The position numbers were made by a program, and so were the translations under genes. The notes below the pieces were generated by a model, which saw only the letters and a program-made list of their open reading frames with translations, was not told the DNA's origin and ran no database searches. DNA of 36,379 nucleotides, taken from a virus. The stretch is taken from the IMG/VR virus record IMGVR_UViG_3300044990_001054, positions 1 to 36,379 of that record. One strand, written 5' to 3'. Below are positions 3,601-36,379 of this stretch, piece after piece (positions within the stretch are counted from its first letter, which is position 1; each line of letters opens with the position of its first letter).

Positions 3601-5368
3601 CGTCTTCCTTCCCCCCGGCTTTCTTGACTTGCCGCCACTCCCAAAAACCGACCTTGATTGCCATCGCGATCAGGCACGCCTCCGCATCCCACCGATGGTT
3701 CGGCCGATCGCCCAGCTGCTCCCACTTCCCCGCCACACTCTGCTCTGCGGTCATCTGCTCCGCGTAATCCCTGTTCCGGGAGTAACCGGCCGGGATCAGC
3801 CACCGCGGCACGGACGGGTCCCCCGCGATGCACTTGGCCAGGATCTCCTTGGCCTTGTCCGGATCGATCGACAGCTCGTAGACCTGGCGGACCTTCCCCC
3901 GCTTCGCAGTTCGCTTCCCCTCGTCGATGTTCAGGGCGTGGCCATCGAACAGCGTGCCGCCTTTCCGGGTCACGCCCATGGTCACCAGGTAACCGTTCAT
4001 TCGGTTCTGGTACACCCACTCGAGCACCTCCTCCCCGCGGTAGCGGCGGTCCAGGGCCGTGAGCTTTGCCCCGTACTTCTCCGCCAGCTCGTCCAGCGCG
4101 GCGAAACCGGACAGCGTTCCCGACCACACCAGGCCGCTGTCCCCGTTTTTAGAGAACGTCCGGACAACCGCCTCGAGGTACCCCTTCTGCACGTCTGCCC
4201 AGATCAGCGTCTGGTAATCCACCCCGTCCTCGGCCTTCTCATACTCGCCGGAGTAGGGGGGGATGCTGACCCACTTCTGCCCCTCCTCGTAGGCCCCCTC
4301 CCGGTGCTGCAGCTGGTCCACCTCGATCTTGCTGTCCGTCCGGTCAAACGGCTCGCCCAACTCGCTGTTGATGAAGTCCTGCAGCTGCTCCGGGTTGGCC
4401 ACGGCGTGCAGCCACTTGCGGACCAACTGGTCCCACCGCACCCATGGTGCGTAGAGGCTGGACAGGTGCAGGCTCGCCATCGTGGGGTCAATCGAGACCG
4501 CCGTCTTTTTCAGCTCCCGCCCCTTCTGCAACATCGCTCCCTTGGCCGCGTCGTTGATCTTGCCCTTGCACCCGGCGCACTGGTAATACGCGTTCAGCGC
4601 CGCCGCATCGATCGACAGCTTGGAATCGAACTTCACCTGGGGCCACACCAGAATCTGCGGCATCCCGCAATGCGGGCACTTCAGGAAAAACCGGCGGCGA
4701 TCCCCGGGCAGGTACCGCCGGTGGATATGCCCCGTCGAACTCGTCGGGGTGGACAGAAGGATCAGCTTGCGCCGCGCCTGGTACGTCTTCGTGCGCTGCT
4801 CGAGCAGGGAGGGCGGATCCGCTTCGTTCTTGACCTTTGCCGGCCACTTGTCGATCTCGTCGCCGACGCCGTAGCGGATCGCCCGGCTGCTCAACTTCGA
4901 CGCCGAGTTGGATCCGACGAAATTGACCGTGTTCTTGCGGAGCTTGTACTGCAGTTTCGTCCAGCAGTTTTTCCGGTCATCCGGGATTAGATCACGCAGG
5001 CCGGGGGACTCCTCGAACACCGGCATGATCGACACCTCGGACTTGGACCGCGCGTCGTCCTCCGTCGCGTAGGCGAACAGCACGGGCCCGGGGTCGTTCT
5101 TGCACCAGTAGCCCAGCGCAACAACCATTATCATGGTGGCCCCGACCTGGGCGCCCTTCTCGATCACGACCGTGTTTATGTCCGGATCCTGGATCATGTC
5201 CAGGATGTCCCGGGCGTACGGCGCCAGGTCCGAACGATACTGCCCTGGGAAGTTGGACCCGGTCTTCGGGGGGATGATCAGGTTCTCCTCGGCCCACTTC
5301 CACATCGGCTCCTCGGGCGGCAGCTCGATGTAGCCCCACATCGGGTTCGGCTCACGCTTCGGTTTCAT
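3581..5368 (-). CDS. Terminase large subunit, GpA family
   Basis: This 595-residue packaging motor/nuclease belongs to the lambda gpA family. In order, it shows a Walker A-like loop KGAQVGAT at 71-78 (the Lys-first form used by gpA), a Walker B-like GDEIDKWP at 169-176, a coupling motif LSTPTSSTG at 205-213, and the family's zinc-finger insert with Cys231, Cys234, Cys264 and Cys267. The C-terminal half, with acidic residues in IWADVQKGYLEAVV and later DRPNHRWDAEACL, is the nuclease region that cuts concatemers. The start at 5368 follows GGAGAAAACTCG and overlaps the small-subunit gene by 17 bp. A GpA-type enzyme with a Nu1-like partner points to cos-type packaging. Confidence 0.95.
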   Translation of the reverse strand: MKPKREPNPMWGYIELPPEEPMWKWAEENLIIPPKTGSNFPGQYRSDLAPYARDILDMIQDPDINTVVIEKGAQVGATMIMVVALGYWCKNDPGPVLFAYATEDDARSKSEVSIMPVFEESPGLRDLIPDDRKNCWTKLQYKLRKNTVNFVGSNSASKLSSRAIRYGVGDEIDKWPAKVKNEADPPSLLEQRTKTYQARRKLILLSTPTSSTGHIHRRYLPGDRRRFFLKCPHCGMPQILVWPQVKFDSKLSIDAAALNAYYQCAGCKGKINDAAKGAMLQKGRELKKTAVSIDPTMASLHLSSLYAPWVRWDQLVRKWLHAVANPEQLQDFINSELGEPFDRTDSKIEVDQLQHREGAYEEGQKWVSIPPYSGEYEKAEDGVDYQTLIWADVQKGYLEAVVRTFSKNGDSGLVWSGTLSGFAALDELAEKYGAKLTALDRRYRGEEVLEWVYQNRMNGYLVTMGVTRKGGTLFDGHALNIDEGKRTAKRGKVRQVYELSIDPDKAKEILAKCIAGDPSVPRWLIPAGYSRNRDYAEQMTAEQSVAGKWEQLGDRPNHRWDAEACLIAMAIKVGFWEWRQVKKAGGKEDDETSGT

Positions 5369-5810
5369 CGAGTTTTCTCCAGCCGTCCAGCATCCGACGG
5401 AAGTATTCTTTCAGCACTTTGGCGCACGACGCCGGCGGCTTGTTGGCCACGAGCAGCGACAGCGGCGCCGGAGCATTAAGCAGTCCGTTTGTGACGACCT
5501 GGACGAAGTCCCGCTGGCGGCGCTCCACCTCGGCCTTGTCCAGCAGCGAGCCCTCGAGCTTGGCCAGCTCCAGCTCCGCGGTGCGGGCCTGCGCGACCAT
5601 CTTCCGGGTCATGGCGCCGCCGTACTCCCCACCCGGGGCGGCCTTGTTGAGCTGGCCGCGTTCCCGGCGGAACGCCTTGATCTTCCCCAGGTCGTATCCG
5701 TCCGGCTCCTTCGGGGGAAACCCCGGGGTCCTGGCCTGGCGGACCACGGTGGCCGAGCTCACGCCCAGGGCGCGGGCGACGGCGGACAGGGATTTAAGTT
5801 TCTTGGCCAT
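5352..5810 (-). CDS. Terminase small subunit, Nu1-like
   Basis: The product has 152 residues. The N-terminus is a helix-turn-helix of the Nu1/excisionase type (LSAVARALGVSSATVVRQAR at about 8-27) followed by a wing with FPPKEPDGYDLGKIKAFRRE. A long helical region (MTRKMVAQARTAELELAKLE and onward) likely mediates oligomerisation, and the C-terminus would bind the large subunit. The small subunit recognises the packaging site on DNA. In lambda that site (cosB) lies just upstream of this gene. Here the upstream DNA holds a nuclease gene and then the repeat array at 6428-6664. The start ATG at 5810 lies within the end of the nuclease gene. Confidence 0.85.
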   Translation of the reverse strand: MAKKLKSLSAVARALGVSSATVVRQARTPGFPPKEPDGYDLGKIKAFRRERGQLNKAAPGGEYGGAMTRKMVAQARTAELELAKLEGSLLDKAEVERRQRDFVQVVTNGLLNAPAPLSLLVANKPPASCAKVLKEYFRRMLDGWRKLDETEA

Positions 5811-6393
5811 CGGACCCCTTTCTTAAAACTGACATACGGGAGAAATAACCGGCTTCCGCACCTGATGGGGGGTGTGGTGCTATTGTAGTACCTATGCCCC
5901 CCGCCCCCTCCAGGCAGGGCAGGCCCTCGACCGTCCAGCTCCGGTCAGCGCCTCGAGCGGCCCAGCAGAAGGTGAAGCCCGGGAACTGGGCACGCGCCTC
6001 ACGCCAGGCCGTAAGGGCACGGCCGTAGGAGTGGTGACGGTATGCGCCCTTGATCTCGATGACGATGTGCAGCCCGCGAAAGAACACGTACCAGTCCGGG
6101 GTGTATCGACTCCCGCCGGCCAGGCGGAAGGTGATCGCCTCGAACTGACCAGCGCCGCCGAGGTAGAGCCGGTTGAACTCCGCCTCGGTCTTGTTGGGCT
6201 GGGGTGCGCGGGGTACCACCGAGCCGGTAACCGCCACCAGTGAGCTGTGCCTGTCCTTGGTCAAGGATGAGCTGATCGGTTCACCTGGCTGCGGTATCCT
6301 GGTTCCCTGTTGCGACTTGGCGGCTTCCGCTAACCGGAGAGCCTGTGCTCGGAGCTCCGGATTCTTGATCTGGGTGATGTCGAAACGGGTCAC
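5794..6393 (-). CDS. PD-(D/E)XK nuclease, DUF1064-like
   Basis: The 199-residue protein carries the DUF1064-type restriction-endonuclease fold: NKTEAEFNRLYL near 67-78, then ITFRLAGGSRYTPDWYVFF with the catalytic Asp in TPDW, then IVIEIKGAYR supplying the E-x-K pair. Such proteins are phage nucleases thought to act on recombination or replication intermediates. The GTG start at 6393 is chosen because GGAGGG lies seven bases upstream. The frame stays open to 6693, but that extension only translates the DNA repeat array. Its position between that array and the small terminase suggests a role at the origin or the packaging site. This is inferred. Confidence 0.75.
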   Translation of the reverse strand: MTRFDITQIKNPELRAQALRLAEAAKSQQGTRIPQPGEPISSSLTKDRHSSLVAVTGSVVPRAPQPNKTEAEFNRLYLGGAGQFEAITFRLAGGSRYTPDWYVFFRGLHIVIEIKGAYRHHSYGRALTAWREARAQFPGFTFCWAARGADRSWTVEGLPCLEGAGGIGTTIAPHPPSGAEAGYFSRMSVLRKGSDGQET

Positions 6394-6427: not shown

Positions 6428-6469
6428 GGGTTGTCCGCTCCCGCCCCCCCTTTAGGGGGCGGACAACCC
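6428..6469. repeat. Palindrome at one end of the iteron array
   Basis: GGGTTGTCCGC at 6428-6438 is the exact reverse complement of GCGGACAACCC at 6459-6469. Inside this 11-bp outer stem, CCGCCCCC at 6441-6448 pairs with GGGGGCGG at 6455-6462, an alternative that partly shares the right arm. The structure could form a hairpin or cruciform whose stem contains one iteron in each arm. Confidence 0.75.
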
Positions 6470-6543
6470 GGACAACCCGGACAACCCCCCCGATTGGACA
6501 ACCCGGACAACCCGGACAACCCCCGCCTCGTATTTGTGTAAAA

Positions 6544-6558
6544 GGTGAACGGATCACC
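6544..6558. repeat. Short inverted repeat in the AT-richer spacer of the iteron array
   Basis: GGTGA at 6544-6548 and TCACC at 6554-6558 form a 5-bp inverted repeat around a 5-bp centre. It lies in the less GC-rich segment between the iteron triplets and the distal iterons. It may be a protein-binding site, but nothing proves this. Confidence 0.35.
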
Positions 6559-6696
6559 AATGTTTTCGGCCTTTTCGTGCTGGTGGTGTTGTACGGCCTT
6601 ACGGTGTCTAAACCCGGACAACCCACCCTTGAAAAAACAGACCCACTTTTGAGGGGGGTTGTCCGGGTCGTTTTTTGAGACATATCGGCGCACAAA

Positions 6697-8037
6697 TCAC
6701 GCATTGAACACCCCCTGTTTCGACGCTGTAGCCGGGGAGTACGGGGAGGCCTTTGCCTTGCCCGTCACCTTGTAAAAAGCGGGGCAGGTGCCGCGCTTGC
6801 GGAGCAGGCCCTCCGCCACGCCCTTCTGGATAGCGACGGTGGCCCCGGTCCGCCCGGTGCCCGTGGCCGCCATGATGTGCTCAACCAACTCGCTGTAGGG
6901 CATCTCACCGCGCGCCTGGACGAGGATGTCCACCACGTCCTGGGCGGTGGCCTTGGCCTTCCCGCGGCCGCCTCCCGGGCCAGACGGGGAGCTGGCCTCA
7001 TCGAGGGCTTCCCGGATCTCGTCCTGGTTCGGCTCCCGCCAGTAGATGGAGCCATCGGTGGCGTGGGCCAGGTAGCGCGAGTCGGTGACGTCACCGGTGG
7101 CCGGATCCCGCCAGCCCAGGCGGCCGAACCGCTTGGGCACACGGAAGCGGAAGACGCCCCGGTGGTTGGTCGACTCCAGGGCCAGGACGGCGCGGGGCCA
7201 GTTGGCCAGCTCCGACGAGCCCAGGCCGAGATAGGCACCCATGTCCGTCCCGCGCTGGTCCCGGCCGGTCTGCCGGATCGGCTTGGGCGTGTGGTGGATC
7301 AGGATCACCGCCAGGTTGAACTTGACCATCAGCGGGGCCAGGCCGTTGCGGAGGAATGGCGACATGATCTTCTGGTCTGACACGTCCCCGCCAACGAAGG
7401 CGAGGAGCGGATCGATCCAGACCAGGTCGAAGGGTCCGTCCGCCTCCAGGAGGGCGCGCAGCGTCTCGAGGAAGCCGGCGCCGAACTGGTCCACGCAGCG
7501 GGCCACGACGATCTGCCGGGAGGCCCGGGCGAACACGTCCGCCGGAAGCGGCCCCGGATTGTCCTCCGTCTCCTCGTCCAGGGGTGGCTGGCCGGGGGCG
7601 GCGGGCGGCTGGTAGGGGCAGCGGGCCACGCCGTCCCGGAAGGCCGCCTCGTCACCCTCGTCGTTCTCCGCCTGGATGATCAGCTGCCGCATGGGCCGGA
7701 CCGGCTGCAGGCCGAAGATCGGCAGGCCAGCGGCCCAGCAGACGGCGATCTGGCGGGTCAGTGAGGACTTCCCCTTGCCGGTGTGGGCCGCCAGCATGGC
7801 CGACCCGCCCCGGCACAGGAACCGGTTGCGGATCAGCTCATCCGGGGCATCCGGCGGCGGCATGACCAGGTCCGCCATGAGCTTGCGCGGCGGGAGCGTC
7901 TTGAACCGGCCCTTCTCCTCGGCAGCGGCGGCGAACTCGGGCGCGATCGCCTTCATCGACTGCAGCATCTGGTAAGGAGTTGGGACGGCCCGGACGGGGG
8001 CGGCCGCGGGCGCCGCCGATTGTGTGGTTGTTGTCAT
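6697..8037 (-). CDS. RepA-like hexameric helicase / AAA_25 ATPase
   Basis: This 446-residue protein is a RecA-fold ATPase of the RepA/AAA_25 group, typical replicative helicases of plasmids and phages. Visible motifs are Walker A AHTGKGKSS at 84-92, Walker B LVWIDPLLAF with Asp209, the sensor-like ILIHHTPKP with His248-His249, and GSSELANWPRAVLAL at 273-287. A Gly/Pro linker after about residue 345 leads to a C-terminal winged-helix-like segment (TAQDVVDILVQARGEMPYSE). The first about 20 residues are Ala/Thr/Pro-rich. It lies immediately upstream of the iteron array, an arrangement seen at plasmid origins. Loading onto that DNA is an inference. Confidence 0.85.
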   Translation of the reverse strand: MTTTTQSAAPAAAPVRAVPTPYQMLQSMKAIAPEFAAAAEEKGRFKTLPPRKLMADLVMPPPDAPDELIRNRFLCRGGSAMLAAHTGKGKSSLTRQIAVCWAAGLPIFGLQPVRPMRQLIIQAENDEGDEAAFRDGVARCPYQPPAAPGQPPLDEETEDNPGPLPADVFARASRQIVVARCVDQFGAGFLETLRALLEADGPFDLVWIDPLLAFVGGDVSDQKIMSPFLRNGLAPLMVKFNLAVILIHHTPKPIRQTGRDQRGTDMGAYLGLGSSELANWPRAVLALESTNHRGVFRFRVPKRFGRLGWRDPATGDVTDSRYLAHATDGSIYWREPNQDEIREALDEASSPSGPGGGRGKAKATAQDVVDILVQARGEMPYSELVEHIMAATGTGRTGATVAIQKGVAEGLLRKRGTCPAFYKVTGKAKASPYSPATASKQGVFNA

Positions 8038-8067: not shown

Positions 8068-9720
8068 TTACTTGGAAGCCGCCTTGAACTCCCGCGGCTG
8101 CTCGTGCTTCAGGTCGAACGGATCCGCCACCTGGTTCCCGGGTGCATCGGCCCACGGGTCCGGGATCGCGCCCCAGGACTTCGGCACCGGCAGTGCTTTC
8201 ATGCACGCCTCGTGGTGAGACGCGAACAGGCTGTAGCCCAGCAGCCGGCAGATCTTGGCCGCCTCGACGAAGGCCCGTTCGGCGTGGTCGAGACCCATAA
8301 AGCCGACCCGGCCATGGAACACCGGCCCGAGGTGGTTGTCGTACTCGGCCTCGAGCGTGTTTGCGTCCGGGCCATTCTCGGCGCCGTTGTCATGGTAGTC
8401 ATCCCATGCTTTGCTGTTGCTGGAGCTGTTCCCCGTGTTGTAGCAGGACCCGAACGCCAGCAGGATGTTCAGCGCCTTGGCCTGGCTGCACTTGCCGAAC
8501 AGGTCCCCCAGGTTGCCGACGACCGACTCCTTGAACGTCTCGACCATCCAAGCGCAGCGCTTCTGGTGCAGGGCCAGCTGGCGCTCGTGCGGCTTCGGGG
8601 GGACAGGCTTGCCATCTGGGCCTACCGGTTTCGGGGGCTTGCTGGATCCGGACTCGGATTGCCGGAGGATGACGACGTTGACCACCGTGCCAAGTCCGGG
8701 GCCGTGCATGATGATGGCCGGCACCGCCTTCGGGTCCCCCTTCTTCGCCTTCTTGCAGTCGTCCCAGTCCTTGGTGCCCAGCTCGGGGAGTTTAGCCAGG
8801 GGCGTCCCGTAATCGGCCCGGGTCGTCCGGATCTGGATCAGGTTCGGGTTGGCGGCCGTCGCCTTCTTGAGGCAGGCATCCAGGTACTCGGCGCACTTCT
8901 CGTCCCAGCATTTCCGGTCCAGGCACTTGGCGTCCTTGGCCGGCTCCTTGTCGTCGCCGAACAGCAGCGGGTTCAGATCCGTCCGCTTCGTGCACCCGGC
9001 GCAGCGGCCAGCGCCGAACGGGGCCTTGGCCAGCAGCATCATCCGGTCCGCCAGTTCCCGATCCAGCGCGTCGGCATTGTCGGGATCCAAGACCCACTGG
9101 GCATCTTCGGCGAGCTCTTCCTGCAGCTCCGCCGGCAGCGTGGCCAGCGTCACCATCTGCCCGATCGTGGACCCCGCGTTTTCCAGCGCCCTTCGCGCCT
9201 TCGGCGTCAGGTTGTTCAGCCGGGCGCGGCGGGCCACCCAGGCGGGAGCCTTGCCCAGCTCGGCGGCGATCTCCGCAATAGGGTGCCCGGTGTCCAGGAG
9301 GGACTGCACGCCGGCCGCCTCCTCGAACGGGGTAAGGTCCGTCCGCTGCAGGTTCTCCAGCACCGTCACCTCGAGGGCGGTCTTGTCGTCCAGGTCCCGC
9401 ACGATGCAGAGCATGTCAAACGCGGCGATCAACTTGTGGGCGGCGTAGCGGCGGCCGCCGGCGAGCAACTCGTAGGTGCCGGGGGTCTTGCCCGGGCGGG
9501 CCACGCCAGGCTGAAGCAGCCCGTTGGCGCGGATGCTGTCGGCCAGCTCCCGGATGTCGTCGCTCTTGGGGTCGATCTGGCGCGGGTTGTTCGGGGACGG
9601 GATCAGGCAGTTCAGCGGGATCCGGATCAGCTGCTCCGGTACCGGCGGGCGGGCCGCGGGCTTTTCGGCGGGCGGGGTCGTGGTTTCGGACTTGCTCGTT
9701 TTCGGCGTCTTCTGTTTCAT
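8068..9720 (-). CDS. ParB/Spo0J-family DNA-binding protein with zinc-like C-terminal extension
   Basis: The gene encodes 550 residues from the ATG at 9720, which follows GAGGGAGAAC; the frame upstream is open but belongs to other genes. The N-terminal half is ParB-like: PSPNNPR at 41-47, ADSIRANGLLQP at 60-71, LLAGGRRYAA at 85-94, ENLQRTDLTPFEEA at 122-135, and a helix-turn-helix IAEIAAELGKAPAWVARRAR near 148-167. A cysteine cluster (Cys240, 243, 266, 271, 276) suggests a bound metal. The remaining 270 residues are unfamiliar. No ParA gene is present. It may act in partition, transcription or origin function, and the nearby iterons are the obvious candidate target. Confidence 0.85.
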   Translation of the reverse strand: MKQKTPKTSKSETTTPPAEKPAARPPVPEQLIRIPLNCLIPSPNNPRQIDPKSDDIRELADSIRANGLLQPGVARPGKTPGTYELLAGGRRYAAHKLIAAFDMLCIVRDLDDKTALEVTVLENLQRTDLTPFEEAAGVQSLLDTGHPIAEIAAELGKAPAWVARRARLNNLTPKARRALENAGSTIGQMVTLATLPAELQEELAEDAQWVLDPDNADALDRELADRMMLLAKAPFGAGRCAGCTKRTDLNPLLFGDDKEPAKDAKCLDRKCWDEKCAEYLDACLKKATAANPNLIQIRTTRADYGTPLAKLPELGTKDWDDCKKAKKGDPKAVPAIIMHGPGLGTVVNVVILRQSESGSSKPPKPVGPDGKPVPPKPHERQLALHQKRCAWMVETFKESVVGNLGDLFGKCSQAKALNILLAFGSCYNTGNSSSNSKAWDDYHDNGAENGPDANTLEAEYDNHLGPVFHGRVGFMGLDHAERAFVEAAKICRLLGYSLFASHHEACMKALPVPKSWGAIPDPWADAPGNQVADPFDLKHEQPREFKAASK

Positions 9721-10301
9721 GTTCTCCCTCTTCTGTTGCACGGTTGGTCGGTTTTTGGCCAATTCGCGGGCTTGTTGATGACGACGGGCAGCAGGCTCGG
9801 CTCCCGGTGCAGCCACAGCAGCACCTTGAACACGGTCAGCCGGACATTCTTGTCCCGCAGGACCAGGTCCGGGAACTGGCGGGGGATTCCGTTGTCGTCC
9901 CGCTGCAGCAGGGCCATCGTGACCGTGGCCCAGCGCCAGTCCTCGACATTCGCCGGGGGCGGCACGATCAGGTTGATCACCTGCTTGTTGTCTCCGGAGA
10001 TGATGTAGTGGCAGTCCCCGCCCTCGTAGTGCTGCCGGACCGCCTCCAGCTCGGCCTGGCCGTCTACGGGCGTCGGCACCTCGGCCGTGGTCTCCACCGC
10101 CCCGCACAGCTCCAGCAGCGGCGCCAGGAGGTCGTTGGGGATCGCCCGGGTGTCCACCACGAAGTCGTAGTCGCTGGCCGCCGTTGCCGCCCCGTACACC
10201 CGGGAGCCGGTCGGGATGAACACCCGCCGGCCCGTGGGGGTGTCCAGCCGTTTGATCATCTCCGCCACCAGTTCCGTATCCATCCGCCAGTACCTGATCA
10301 T
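9717..10301 (-). CDS. Nucleotidyltransferase-fold protein (Pol beta superfamily)
   Basis: The 194-residue product shows the nucleotidyltransferase signature TGSRVYGAATAASDYDFVVD at 31-50: the GS pair, then Asp44 and Asp46 as metal ligands. A third acidic residue may lie in VINLIVPPPANVEDW. Enzymes of this superfamily transfer NMP to protein, RNA or small molecules; the substrate here is unknown. The start follows GGGAGGCAGGC, and the stop overlaps the ParB-like start as ATGA, so the two are co-translated. There is no HEPN partner to suggest a MNT/HEPN toxin-antitoxin pair. The genes on both sides are DNA replication genes. Confidence 0.75.
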   Translation of the reverse strand: MIRYWRMDTELVAEMIKRLDTPTGRRVFIPTGSRVYGAATAASDYDFVVDTRAIPNDLLAPLLELCGAVETTAEVPTPVDGQAELEAVRQHYEGGDCHYIISGDNKQVINLIVPPPANVEDWRWATVTMALLQRDDNGIPRQFPDLVLRDKNVRLTVFKVLLWLHREPSLLPVVINKPANWPKTDQPCNRRGRT

Positions 10302-10343
10302 GCCTGCCTCCCTCTTCCTCTTGTGTCTCGTTTCGGTTTCGGT

Positions 10344-11204
10344 CTACTGTCCAACAAAAACAATCTCCTGCCGCTCCGGGAGCTGCCCGTCCCGGTACCG
10401 CAGCCCGCCCGGGGTCCGGACCAACTGGGAGCGCACCCAGGTGTGCGGATCCGCGCCCAGGCCGATGGCGTAGCTCATGAAGTCCCGCAGGGTGTAGTCG
10501 TCCACGCCCTCGACCCGGAACCAGCCGTGGATCGACTTGCCGGCCGAGTCGACCGCCAGCAGCAGCGGGAGAATGCGGGCCAGGTGAGACAGCACGGCTG
10601 CCTGCGTGACCTTGTCCTGGTCGTCGAACTCCAACACCAGGTGCCGGCGCAAGAGCACGTTGCTGTCGCAGCGGGGGCTCGGCTTGCCCGCCTTGTTGAC
10701 CCCCATCGTGGCCGCCATGGGGGAGGGGACAATGAACTGCGCCTGGTCGACCACGCCGAGGGCGGCCCGGGCGGGCATCACGGAGGGGTTGGTCTGCACG
10801 CCGGCCAGGCACACCAGGTCATCCGGCTGGAACAGCACCTGCAGCGCCTGGGCGGCCGTCATGCCGGTGCGGGTGGCCGGGTCGAACAGCGGGGTGGTGG
10901 TGGCGGCCACCGTGGCGATCCGGATCAGGTTCGGCTCCCACCAGTCCAGGGGAAGCCCCGGGGTGCCCGGCCCGTTGCCCTCGTAGGCGAACGCGTCCGA
11001 GATCGCCGCCTCGATCTCCCGGGCGGGCGGCTGCCGGTGCGGCCAGTTGGCGGCGGCCTCGGTCAGGAACTTGGTGACCGCCTCCCGGGAGTGGTACCGG
11101 CGCAGGGACACGGCCACGCGGAACAGCCACCGGTGGCCCTCCCCCGGTTCCGGCGGGGCGGACAGGAGCTTCGACAGGCGGCTGGGGTACTCGGTCAGCA
11201 TCAT
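10344..11204 (-). CDS. Putative primase, archaeo-eukaryotic primase-like
   Basis: The gene encodes 286 residues from the ATG at 11204, which overlaps the upstream stop as ATGA; a frame extension to 11282 would only read over that upstream gene. Residues 188-196 (HLVLEFDDQ) and 218-229 (VDSAGKSIHGWF) resemble the metal-binding and S-x-H motifs of archaeo-eukaryotic primase-like enzymes, where the His contacts the nucleotide. The N-terminal 90 residues are helical and may be a separate domain. It is encoded with a helicase, DNA polymerase and SSB-like protein and would fill the otherwise missing primase function. The match is by motif only. Confidence 0.6.
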   Translation of the reverse strand: MMLTEYPSRLSKLLSAPPEPGEGHRWLFRVAVSLRRYHSREAVTKFLTEAAANWPHRQPPAREIEAAISDAFAYEGNGPGTPGLPLDWWEPNLIRIATVAATTTPLFDPATRTGMTAAQALQVLFQPDDLVCLAGVQTNPSVMPARAALGVVDQAQFIVPSPMAATMGVNKAGKPSPRCDSNVLLRRHLVLEFDDQDKVTQAAVLSHLARILPLLLAVDSAGKSIHGWFRVEGVDDYTLRDFMSYAIGLGADPHTWVRSQLVRTPGGLRYRDGQLPERQEIVFVGQ

Positions 11205-19542: not shown

Positions 19543-19911
19543 ATGAAAGCTGCTTGTATCGCTGTGATGCTGTTTTGTGGGTGTGCGTCTTTTGGTTCAG
19601 GTATAGAACGGCTTGGCGGAGGTGTGGGTGGGAGCGCCCCGTATGTGTCCGTTGATGAAACACGCATCGACGCACAAATCGAGCGCGTGTTCACTAACGC
19701 GTTCATCTCATCTGATTGGAATTTTATGCACGGGGGCCGGCAACACGTCAGGATCATGGTCAAAGGGAAAGACGCCAGTAAACTGGCCGTTGGAGAGAGA
19801 TGGGCGGGCCACGTCACAAAAGGCGGCACATTCAAAGATATAGAGGGTCAGCCTTACCGGGTCTATTTCGCCGTCCCTCCTCCGACCAATCCGCCGAGCA
19901 AACGAAAATAA
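19543..19911 (+). CDS. Small predicted lipoprotein encoded between repressor and integrase
   Basis: The product has 122 residues. It starts with MKAACIAVMLFCGC, a short charged start, a hydrophobic core and Cys in a lipobox-like LFCGC, followed by Ala-Ser, so it is probably lipidated and exported. The mature part contains a beta-rich stretch (DWNFMHGGRQHVRIMVKGKD) and a Pro-rich end. AAGGGGAAAGGCC precedes the ATG. A TATACT at 19517-19522 could be a -10 for it. Its stop overlaps the integrase ATG (TAATG), so the two are coupled. Expression from a lysogen would make it a candidate lysogenic-conversion or superinfection-exclusion factor. Confidence 0.65.
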   Translation: MKAACIAVMLFCGCASFGSGIERLGGGVGGSAPYVSVDETRIDAQIERVFTNAFISSDWNFMHGGRQHVRIMVKGKDASKLAVGERWAGHVTKGGTFKDIEGQPYRVYFAVPPPTNPPSKRK

Positions 19912-21047
19912 TGCCACGCCCACTCCTAAAGCCAATAAACTACGGATCCACGCCCGGCACCATCCGCCCGGTGCCGCGGGGCGGGTGGGATGCCTACGTC
20001 CGGGTAGATGGCAAGCGGTACCGGATCCGCAAAGACACGCTGGAGGAGGCCAAGGCCTGGGTCATCATGACCGAGGAGACCGCCGGCGCCCACCGCCCGC
20101 CGCTCTCCGCAAGCCAGGCGGCCGACGCCGTGCGGGCGATCGCGCTTCTCCCCGCCGGCTACACCCTTACCGATGCCGCCCGCGCCCTGGCCGCCAGCTC
20201 GGCGCCGCCGGATCTGCCCGCGGTTGACATGGCGGCTGCCGCCGAGCGGTTCATCGAGGAGCGCCGCGGCTTCCTGGCCGACGCCACCATGCGAAACTAC
20301 CGCGCCCACACCCGCCGGCTGGCCGCTCTGGCCAAATGCGACGTGAAAGACGTATCCCCCGAGACGATCAAGTCCCTCCTGGTGGGCAAGGCGGGCGGGA
20401 CCCGCAACAGCATCCTGCGCAGCCTCTCCGCCTTTTTCAGCTGGGCCCAGGACGAGGGCATGGTCAAGGACTCCCCGCTGGCCAAGATCAAAATGGCTCT
20501 CACCAAGGACGCGGAGATCCACGTGCTGACGGTGGAACAGGCCCGGCACCTGATAGCCACAGCCGCGCGCGTCCGGCCCCAGCTGGTGCCGTACCTGGCC
20601 CTATCCCTGTTCGCCGGGATCCGGCCCGAGGAACTCCAGCGCCTGCCCGGTTCAAAGCTGGGGCGCGACTACATCCTGATCGATGGCGACGTGGCCAAGA
20701 AGCGCCGGCGCCGCACGATCCAGATCCAGCCGAACCTGCGCGCCTGGCTGGATGCGTTCCCGCCGCCGGCCGCCGAGTTGGTCTACTGGGGGCGCCGCGC
20801 CTTCCGGGCCGTGCTGCTCGAGTGGGGTGGGGTGTGGCACAACGACGTTTGCCGGCACACCTTCGGGACCATGCGCTGGGAACAGATCAAGGACCCGATC
20901 CAGGTCTCGGCCGAGATGGGCAACTCCCCGGACGTTTTGATGACGGCATACCGGGCGCTGGTGCACCCAGGGGAGGGGGCTCGGTTCTTCGATATCCAGC
21001 CCCAATGCGAGCGCTTTTGTCCAACGGTTGTCCAACGCTCGTCATAA
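19911..21047 (+). CDS. int: Tyrosine-recombinase integrase
   Basis: The product has 378 residues. An arm-binding-like N-terminus (GGWDAYVRVDGKRYRIRKDT) is followed by a core-binding SAM-like domain (about 104-190) and the catalytic domain. Catalytic candidates are Arg238 (FAGIRPEE), Lys263, Arg315 in NDVCRHTFGT and the nucleophile Tyr347 (VLMTAYRALV). Asp312 occupies the place of the usual first His of the HxxR motif. It starts at ATG 19911, overlapping the lipoprotein stop. The attP core lies 29 bp beyond its stop, and one of the 19-bp repeats lies inside its last codons. Confidence 0.93.
   Translation: MPRPLLKPINYGSTPGTIRPVPRGGWDAYVRVDGKRYRIRKDTLEEAKAWVIMTEETAGAHRPPLSASQAADAVRAIALLPAGYTLTDAARALAASSAPPDLPAVDMAAAAERFIEERRGFLADATMRNYRAHTRRLAALAKCDVKDVSPETIKSLLVGKAGGTRNSILRSLSAFFSWAQDEGMVKDSPLAKIKMALTKDAEIHVLTVEQARHLIATAARVRPQLVPYLALSLFAGIRPEELQRLPGSKLGRDYILIDGDVAKKRRRRTIQIQPNLRAWLDAFPPPAAELVYWGRRAFRAVLLEWGGVWHNDVCRHTFGTMRWEQIKDPIQVSAEMGNSPDVLMTAYRALVHPGEGARFFDIQPQCERFCPTVVQRSS
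21019..21037. repeat. attP arm repeat, left copy
   Basis: GTCCAACGGTTGTCCAACG occurs here and again, identical and in the same orientation, at 21258-21276, 239 bp away. Each copy contains two GTCCAACG units 11 bp apart, about one helical turn. The pair flanks the attP core, as arm-type integrase sites do. This copy overlaps the 3' end of the integrase gene. Confidence 0.7.
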
Positions 21048-35047: not shown

Positions 35048-35944
35048 TTAGGCGGACAGCAGGCGGATGGCCGCGGCGTTGCACTTGGCGAATCCGGGCA
35101 TGACCTCGAACCGGCCGTAGGTGATGCCCTTGCCGGAATCGCGCCAGCGCCGGTAGCTCATCACGACTCCGCTCTCGGGGTCGCTCAGGATCTGGTTGAA
35201 CTCGGCGGACGATTCGCCGCCGATGGACACGGGCAGCACGGGGGCCATGGCGCACGCGAGCGCCGAGGTGTCGCACACGATGCCGGCCAGGTTCTGCGAG
35301 TTGGTCGGCAGGGCGCTGTACTTGAACGTCTGCATGCCGCCGAGCGGGGGCAGGATGCCCGTCTCGAACGACTTGCTTCCGCCCGTGGCGATGATCAGGC
35401 CCAGCGTCGAATCGCCGACCGCCTGCCAGGCATAGGACGAATTCAGGATCAGGGAGCGACCGCGCTCGCTGACGCCCTTGTCGTCGGCCTTCTTCGCAAG
35501 CTGGGCGATGTCCGCCATGCCGAACTCGGAAACCGGAACCACCAGCTTGTCGGTGGCCAGGTCGCCATAGTTGGCGGCGGTGAAGTACGCCAGGGCCGCG
35601 TCGAGGTACGCCTTCGCGACGGCGTAGGAGTGCTCGATGGCGCGGTCCATGAACGCCGTCAGGGGGTCGCGCCCGTCCACCGCTTCCCACTGCGAAGCAA
35701 TCGGGTCGAGCAGCGTAACGGACGCCGTGGCGGACGCGCCGCCGCTTTCGCCATCCGCTCCGAGCACGCGGGTCGCGGCGGTCGCGGCGCCACGGATCGG
35801 CACCTTGACGACTTCGCCCTTGAGCATGCTCTTGGTTTCCGCCTTGAACGAAAAGGCGTTGATGGAAATGAGCGCAGCCTTCAGCGCGCCGAGGGAGTCC
35901 TTCATCAGGACGGTTTCGTTGAATCCGGTATAGGTCGTGGCCAT
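35048..35944 (-). CDS. Major capsid protein
   Basis: The product has 298 residues. Segments such as VKVPIRGAATAATRVLGADG near 46-65, YAVAKAYLDAALAYFTAANY near 107-126, and SVSIGGESSAEFNQIL-like sequence toward the end fit a HK97-fold capsid subunit in size and layout. It lies after the protease, decoration-position and scaffold genes and before the head-completion genes. The start ATG at 35944 is preceded by AAGGATACACGATC. No single motif proves the fold; position and size make it by far the best candidate. Confidence 0.75.
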   Translation of the reverse strand: MATTYTGFNETVLMKDSLGALKAALISINAFSFKAETKSMLKGEVVKVPIRGAATAATRVLGADGESGGASATASVTLLDPIASQWEAVDGRDPLTAFMDRAIEHSYAVAKAYLDAALAYFTAANYGDLATDKLVVPVSEFGMADIAQLAKKADDKGVSERGRSLILNSSYAWQAVGDSTLGLIIATGGSKSFETGILPPLGGMQTFKYSALPTNSQNLAGIVCDTSALACAMAPVLPVSIGGESSAEFNQILSDPESGVVMSYRRWRDSGKGITYGRFEVMPGFAKCNAAAIRLLSA

Positions 35945-35973
35945 GATCGTGTATCCTTGCGGGTTCGGGGGTT

Positions 35974-36379
35974 CTACTTCGCCTGCGCTTCGAAGATCTG
36001 CTTCCGGAGCGCTTCCAGTTTGACGGGATCGGTTTCAGCCATGTACGCCGCTTCCAGCTTCGCCAGGGTCATCGGCTCGCCTTCGGAGGCGGGCTTCGTC
36101 CCCTGGGGAACCACGGGGGCGCCGCCAGCGTCGGCCGCCTTGAACGACGGATCGGCGAGCTTCGCTTCGAGGTTCTTGACCTTGGCGGTCGAGTCCTCGA
36201 GCGCCTTGGCGGTGACGCCGTGCTTGCCCTGCTCGGCGGTCAGATCGGCGGTGGCCTTCTCGGCCGTGGCCTTGAAGGTGTCACGCTCGGCAGTCAGCGC
36301 CTTGACGCTGGCTTCCAGGGCGGTCACCTTGCCGGACTCGGCGGTCCGCTTGGCGGTCAGGTCGGCCACGGTCGTGGTC
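35974..36379 (-). CDS. Putative capsid scaffold, C-terminal part (gene crosses the contig join)
   Basis: This is the main part of the gene that begins at 198 and crosses the join. The stop is TAG at 35976-35974. The reading frame stays open to the right edge because 36220-36379 repeats the left end. The C-terminus contains SEGEPMTLAKLEAAYMAETD followed by VKLEALRKQIFEAQAK, a charged helix of the kind that binds capsid subunits in scaffold proteins. A Pro/Gly linker (APVVPQGTKPASEG) separates it from the coiled-coil part. Confidence 0.65.
   Translation of the reverse strand, partial: TTTVADLTAKRTAESGKVTALEASVKALTAERDTFKATAEKATADLTAEQGKHGVTAKALEDSTAKVKNLEAKLADPSFKAADAGGAPVVPQGTKPASEGEPMTLAKLEAAYMAETDPVKLEALRKQIFEAQAK
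36220..36379. repeat. Terminal overlap, right copy
   Basis: This is the second copy of bases 1-160, with C at 36347 where the left copy has A at 128. Removing one copy gives a circle of about 36,219 bp with an intact coiled-coil gene. Confidence 0.9.

Follow-up and report, generated by a model that had tools for sequence, protein, structure and literature searches.

Iterons and a recurrent hairpin core behind an AAA_25 helicase gene as the probable replication origin of a phage

The window, i.e., the whole stretch of DNA that was analyzed, is the entire virus record IMGVR_UViG_3300044990_001054 and comprises 36,379 bp. Genes for the terminase, the portal, and an S49 peptidase (the latter within positions 1-1523) run leftwards to its left end, and the gene for the major head protein lies near its right end (within 35048-36379); the genes at both ends are consistent with a nearly complete genome that is circularly permuted. 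The phage is probably temperate, as suggested by an integrase gene at 19800-21047. The array of short repeats that is the subject of this study fills a 303-bp gap between the stop of a helicase gene (6697) and the GTG start of the next gene (6393). The features of this region, for which the iterons and the dyad were read from the sequence, are as follows.

5352-5810, minus strand: Nu1-like small terminase subunit (phrog_57, E 1.3e-17), probably not a partner of the array
5794-6393, minus strand: gene after the array, without a Pfam match, so that a nuclease identity is unsupported; relative at the same place in locus L244 (E 1.2e-24)
6428-6469, no strand: dyad, putative strand-opening or hairpin site, based on sequence, fold, and similar dyads after related helicases
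6428-6436, minus strand: inverted copy of GGACAACCC, outer arm of the dyad
6446-6459, minus strand: core of the dyad, CCCCCTAAAGGGGG when read on the helicase strand; a scan with the core only leads to AAA_25 genes
6461-6487, plus strand: iteron triplet 1, three GGACAACCC head to tail (6461, 6470, and 6479)
6496-6522, plus strand: iteron triplet 2, three GGACAACCC (6496, 6505, and 6514), 35 bp from triplet 1
6524-6615, no strand: spacer of lower GC content (0.50), 92 bp between triplet 2 and the distal copy
6616-6624, plus strand: distal direct GGACAACCC iteron
6656-6664, minus strand: inverted GGACAACCC iteron adjoining the helicase stop
6697-8037, minus strand: AAA_25 replicative helicase, proposed initiator (PF13481, E 7.7e-20)
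6766-6945, minus strand: winged-helix-like C-terminal unit of the helicase, residues about 365-424 (H-E-H-H-E-E in the model)
8068-10812, minus strand: ParB-like protein (PF02195, E 9e-17), probably not a partner of the array

The ParB-like ORF encodes 914 amino acids from its first GTG, and its known domains start at residue 394; its true start may lie further in.

A reading of the sequence only had described nine exact GGACAACCC units, arranged as two triplets with a 35-bp period, one distal direct copy, and two inverted copies bracketing the region. A pattern count over the window retrieved all nine at these places, between 6428 and 6664, and all were confined to this one cluster. In simulated windows (60 runs of a first-order Markov model of the window), the mean number of exact copies was 0.45 and the highest was 3. 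When one mismatch was allowed, the window had 29 matches, versus a mean of 14.0 and a maximum of 25 in shuffles. Like an iteron origin, the region has more direct repeats of a short word than expected by chance, and these adjoin the gene of a putative initiator/helicase.

That earlier description had left out the dyad, the filling of the 303-bp gap, and the spacer of lower GC content. The dyad is formed by the inverted iteron at 6428-6436, the C/G core CCCCCTTTAGGGGG at 6446-6459, and the direct iteron at 6461-6469. In the sense of the helicase gene, the array therefore ends with GGGTTGTCCGCCCCCTAAAGGGGGGGCGGGAGCGGACAACCC (the complement of 6428-6469), which consists of one iteron, the C/G core with its TAAA loop, and an inverted iteron. 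As single-stranded DNA, the dyad is predicted to fold at -16.5 kcal/mol (z -4.1). The GC content of the spacer compares with about 0.65 in its surroundings; the spacer is not clearly A-T rich and is a possible candidate for an unwinding region. The GC skew along the window showed no switch at the array.

The AlphaFold2 model of the helicase (pLDDT 85.8) retrieved DnaB helicases and RepA of RSF1010 in Foldseek searches (1nlf and 1olo; TM 0.70 to 0.72 by target length). According to this model, the protein has the RSF1010 RepA/DnaB fold and belongs to the RepA-type hexameric class by fold only; sequence searches of the PDB retrieved no relative and no sequence similarity to RepA, and tblastn among named phages and plasmids retrieved nothing. 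The helicase has the RecA fold of AAA_25 proteins, not that of superfamily 3, and lacks a primase domain. Its residues 365-424 (approximately) are modeled with a pLDDT of about 85 to 95 in the order of a winged helix, and we propose that this unit is the iteron-reading domain. Among the window genes scanned, which were part of the ORFs, neither a separate primase nor separate RepC and RepB' proteins were recognized. The Rep/ori system of SaPI likewise has an initiator helicase whose C-terminal domain binds the origin and whose gene has repeats nearby, although that helicase is of another class. A C5-TAAA-G5 dyad is not known from the P4 or SaPI origins.

To compare this region with its relatives, we scanned virus contigs with the helicase, which gave 80 loci, and genome contigs with a profile, which gave 52 loci, mostly from Verrucomicrobiota and other PVC bacteria. 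These genome-contig relatives (L208 to L259) suggest a PVC-type host for the phage. Sufficient downstream DNA was available for 111 of the 132 loci, which formed 48 clusters at 75% identity; the set of relatives does not include L005 and L086, which are nearly identical to the window. A number of observations were made on this set. (i) When read by eye, nearly every gap contained a repeated word of its own and a dyad with that word as arms, the core of which was usually a C-run, TAAA, TTTA, TATA, or TACG, and a G-run. No convincing element was seen by eye in L213, L227, L246, and L249. (ii) Of the helicase clusters, 7 of the 10 viral and 16 of the 39 genomic ones had a strictly defined dyad, versus 5 of 597 control regions of the same loci. 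(iii) In 18 of the 48 clusters, a dyad was accompanied by two or more additional exact copies of its arm word; the corresponding figures were 7/400 for controls and 1/144 for shuffles. (iv) A dyad of any kind was not specific (44/48 versus 157/400 controls and 24/144 shuffles). A search for the same array in related phages had been suggested; what they share is its place and the kind of core, whereas the iteron sequences differ. Two loci (L085 and L087) that share the exact triplet by pattern were rejected, since the repeats lie within apparent repetitive coding sequence and represent a chance likeness. Its absence from closely related phages that have all three genes (helicase, ParB-like, and Nu1-like) had been named as an argument against a function of the array; a 7,747-bp contig, 99.99% identical to the window, keeps the nine copies, and no more distant relative with these three genes together was found.

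The relatives were also approached from the opposite side, by scanning for CCCCCTAAAGGGGG without any protein information, which gave 80 readable loci of at least 120. Further inverted arms flanked 49 of 78 distinct cores, versus 16 of 400 shuffled flanks and 5 of 67 for the control core CCCCCAAATGGGGG, which was handled in the same way. At 48 of the 80 loci, an ORF of at least 200 amino acids ended towards the core within 600 bp. The 38 of these ORFs with at least 289 amino acids were submitted to Pfam, and 31 contained AAA_25, as opposed to 0 of 23 for the control core; several of the 31 were fused to Prim-Pol or Toprim primase domains. Many core loci had no helicase in view, which is explained in some cases by short contigs. 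In the 49 cores with arms, the right arm was longer than the left in 27, shorter in 18, and equal in 4, and the most frequent difference was +2 (13 of 49); a 2-nucleotide surplus is only a tendency in this set. A search for the core in one genome gave no match, and a text search of the literature gave no paper on phage origins among the matches listed.

Is the sequence of the iterons related to that of the helicase? Pairwise comparison of 39 clusters showed that the similarity of the dyad arms correlated with that of the helicase C termini (r 0.36) and, to a lesser degree, with that of the motor domains (r 0.22). The partial correlations were 0.29 for the C terminus (p 0.0005) and 0.02 for the motor. 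For this analysis, six clusters had been excluded by eye and the arms of two had been entered by hand; its repetition without such choices on 38 clusters gave 0.27 (p 0.001) and 0.01, respectively. When pairs of similar motors were removed, the values were 0.12 (p 0.006) and about 0 (Mantel). As judged from these sequence comparisons, iteron similarity follows the C-terminal winged-helix region of the helicase and not its motor; the effect is modest but specific.

Among named phages and plasmids, 19 helicase loci were inspected, and iterons and dyads were judged by eye. A dyad was present in 12 of them. Eight of these were Rhizobium phage 16-3, RHph_X2_25, CRP-823, 1N2-2, RHph_N65, a Xanthobacter plasmid, pMRAD08, and Methylobacterium currus unnamed4. 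In the other four, the dyad had a peculiarity: it lay one gene further on in Vibrio 1.210, lacked a C/G core in FF17 pD, had arms unlike the iterons of its own locus in Caenibius p1, and was without clear iterons in pPNAP03. Javan355 and pKp_Goe_795-4 had iterons only, and neither iterons nor a dyad were seen by eye in GB2A, Thonko, Mae-JY30, ctyzp037, and Trine. The design is therefore not universal among AAA_25 helicases; that such a helicase does not require iterons and a dyad counts against the reading of the array as an origin. The database entries of several carriers of the element are circular plasmids that contain phage genes, and the replication genes listed for M. currus unnamed4 are those of a Toprim protein and an AAA_25 helicase. 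In phage 16-3 (DQ500118), the layout is that of the window: downstream of the helicase gene, which ends at 56249, iterons and a dyad with the core CTCCTTTAGGAG extend up to 56607. The iteron is a different one, GCGTGACA, and the helicase is fused to a primase. No description of this element as an origin was found in the literature searched on phage 16-3.

Taken together, these data lead us to propose that the array is the replication origin of the phage and that the helicase, whose gene directly precedes it in the operon, serves as the initiator; we assign a probability of about 0.84 to this reading. It is supported by the fact that the element travels with the helicase and that the iterons follow the helicase C-terminal domain. 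The sequence-only reading had left three roles undecided, namely, a replication origin, a centromere for the ParB-like protein, and cosB. It is the comparison of relatives that favors the first and speaks against the other two.

A packaging site of the cos/cosB type, at which the small terminase would bind the iterons and the large subunit would cut at or near the dyad, is an improbable alternative. The Nu1-like gene lies one gene downstream of the array and the large subunit is of the gpA type; in addition, the gene directly after the array in L016 has a possible small-terminase-like HTH (a candidate reading), and a dyad lies beside terminase genes in L166. Against this, the annotated cohesive end of phage 16-3 (60186-60195) is 3.6 kb away from its element, and the 144,762-bp plasmid unnamed2 of Xanthobacter dioxanivorans carries a helicase followed by the same design and has no annotated terminase or capsid gene in the PLSDB gene list, which may be incomplete. 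The link between the iterons and the helicase C terminus is a further argument against packaging, as is the variability of the genes that follow the array: most of the 53 first ORFs scanned had no match, and the matches were to PDDEXK_15 (5), sigma-70 region 4 (3), VRR_NUC (2), RuvC (1), ParB_N (1), and others.

With a similarly low probability, the array might be a transcriptional element, i.e., an operator, a terminator, or an RNA hairpin between the helicase and the late genes. Both of its neighboring genes point in the same direction, and transcription could be terminated or regulated by a strong hairpin. The orientation of the core argues against this role. When the 48 clusters are read in the direction of the helicase gene, 7 have TAAA in the core and 6 have TTTA; among 23 of the 31 AAA_25 loci selected by the core, 12 carry it on the helicase strand and 11 on the opposite strand. 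Because its orientation is random relative to the gene, the core would act as DNA. Furthermore, an Rfam search of the window gave no match, the dyad of the window is not followed by a T-run, and RHph_N65 and pPNAP03 have the gene after the array on the opposite strand. The array may have a regulatory role in addition to that of an origin.

Least probable is a parS-like centromere that is read by the ParB-like protein and stabilizes an extrachromosomal prophage: the ParB-like gene is directly upstream of the helicase gene, but its ParB domain was found in only 1 of the 48 cluster representatives, that of the window itself, while many of the other 47 have the element, and a scan of part of the window ORFs revealed no ParA.

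Returning to the origin, the closest precedents combine some of its properties. According to PMC4234260, a stem-loop located 3' of the replication gene of pRN1 is required in cis and is sufficient together with the replication operon, and its authors extend the idea of a stem-loop origin to Bordetella phage BIP-1. The likenesses to the present region are the position of the origin, directly 3' of the gene of the replication protein, the dyad or stem-loop, and the winged helix at the protein C terminus (PMC4234260); in the window, too, the stem-loop is directly 3' of the helicase gene. That the stem-loop sequence varies between relatives of pRN1 and BIP-1 is counted as another likeness (PMC4234260). 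In contrast, the protein of these systems contains a primase-polymerase and a superfamily 3 helicase, compared with the AAA_25 RecA fold of the window helicase, and the pRN1 origin is stated to have no iterons (PMC4234260). The candidate origin of the window, with iterons and a conserved core, combines both elements, whereas that of pRN1 has the stem-loop only. The oriV of RSF1010 (IncQ) resembles the window in its RepA-like hexameric helicase fold, its iterons, and its short origin hairpins (PMC4234260). There, the protein that binds the iterons, the RepA helicase, and the primase that acts on short stem-loops are separate; RepC occupies the iterons and two oppositely oriented ssi hairpins are present (PMC4234260), as opposed to a single core and dyad inside the iteron array of the window. 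In the present design, iteron reading is apparently, and in our view probably, fused to the RepA-like helicase. In P4, which resembles the arrangement proposed for the window, the alpha protein is an initiator helicase that binds ori through a C-terminal domain, and repeats lie close to its gene, but this helicase is of another class (PMC4234260).

The helicase-linked iteron origin, with lineage-specific repeats around a recurring hairpin core after the helicase gene, would be a widespread design that is apparently undescribed; no earlier description was found in the literature searched, which took in few subscription journals. We infer the following order of events: the C-terminal winged helix of the helicase would bind the GGACAACCC iterons, and copies of the protein on the two inverted iterons would hold the C/G dyad, which would open or extrude as a hairpin, perhaps with the help of the lower-GC spacer. 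The RSF1010 RepA-like hexamer would then load itself on the exposed strand, where a primase would start synthesis. Iterons could change freely provided that the winged helix changes along with them, and the core would be kept because conserved machinery uses it. More tentatively, with slightly less than even odds, this would define a widespread two-part class of phage and plasmid origins, in which the covarying winged helix at the end of an AAA_25 helicase reads exchangeable iterons, and helicase self-loading and priming take place on a hairpin extruded from a recurrent C5-TAAA-G5 dyad, with neither DnaA nor a separate loader.

It is rare for the replication origin of an uncultivated phage to be located. 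If the proposal is true, the core and lineage-specific inverted repeats after an AAA_25 helicase gene would point to the origins of many phages and phage-plasmids, and each origin would pair with its own specificity domain in a manner legible from uncultivated virus contigs. Domain swaps could then address iteron recognition in phages that are in culture; Rhizobium phage 16-3 is one of these and makes the proposal testable. Compact origin-initiator pairs might also serve hosts for which there are no plasmid tools.

Three minor observations were made in the course of the comparison. (i) The dyad of L166, at 2158-2171 and beside the terminase genes, has GGACAAC arms that resemble the window iteron; the helicase is absent from this 4.5-kb contig. 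(ii) A second motif, roughly GTAAGTnnTTGnAA, occurs between the helicase stop and the dyad in several PVC-group loci (L025, L221, L232, L259, and L007) and is followed in several of them by an inverted ACTTAC about 20 nucleotides on; judging from its sequence and position, it may be another site of the origin to which a protein binds. (iii) The marine phages of the largest cluster (L031, L037, L043, and similar loci) have a 24-bp tandem repeat, starting with CTACTCAAGAGA, downstream of the iterons, about 1.1 kb after the helicase gene.
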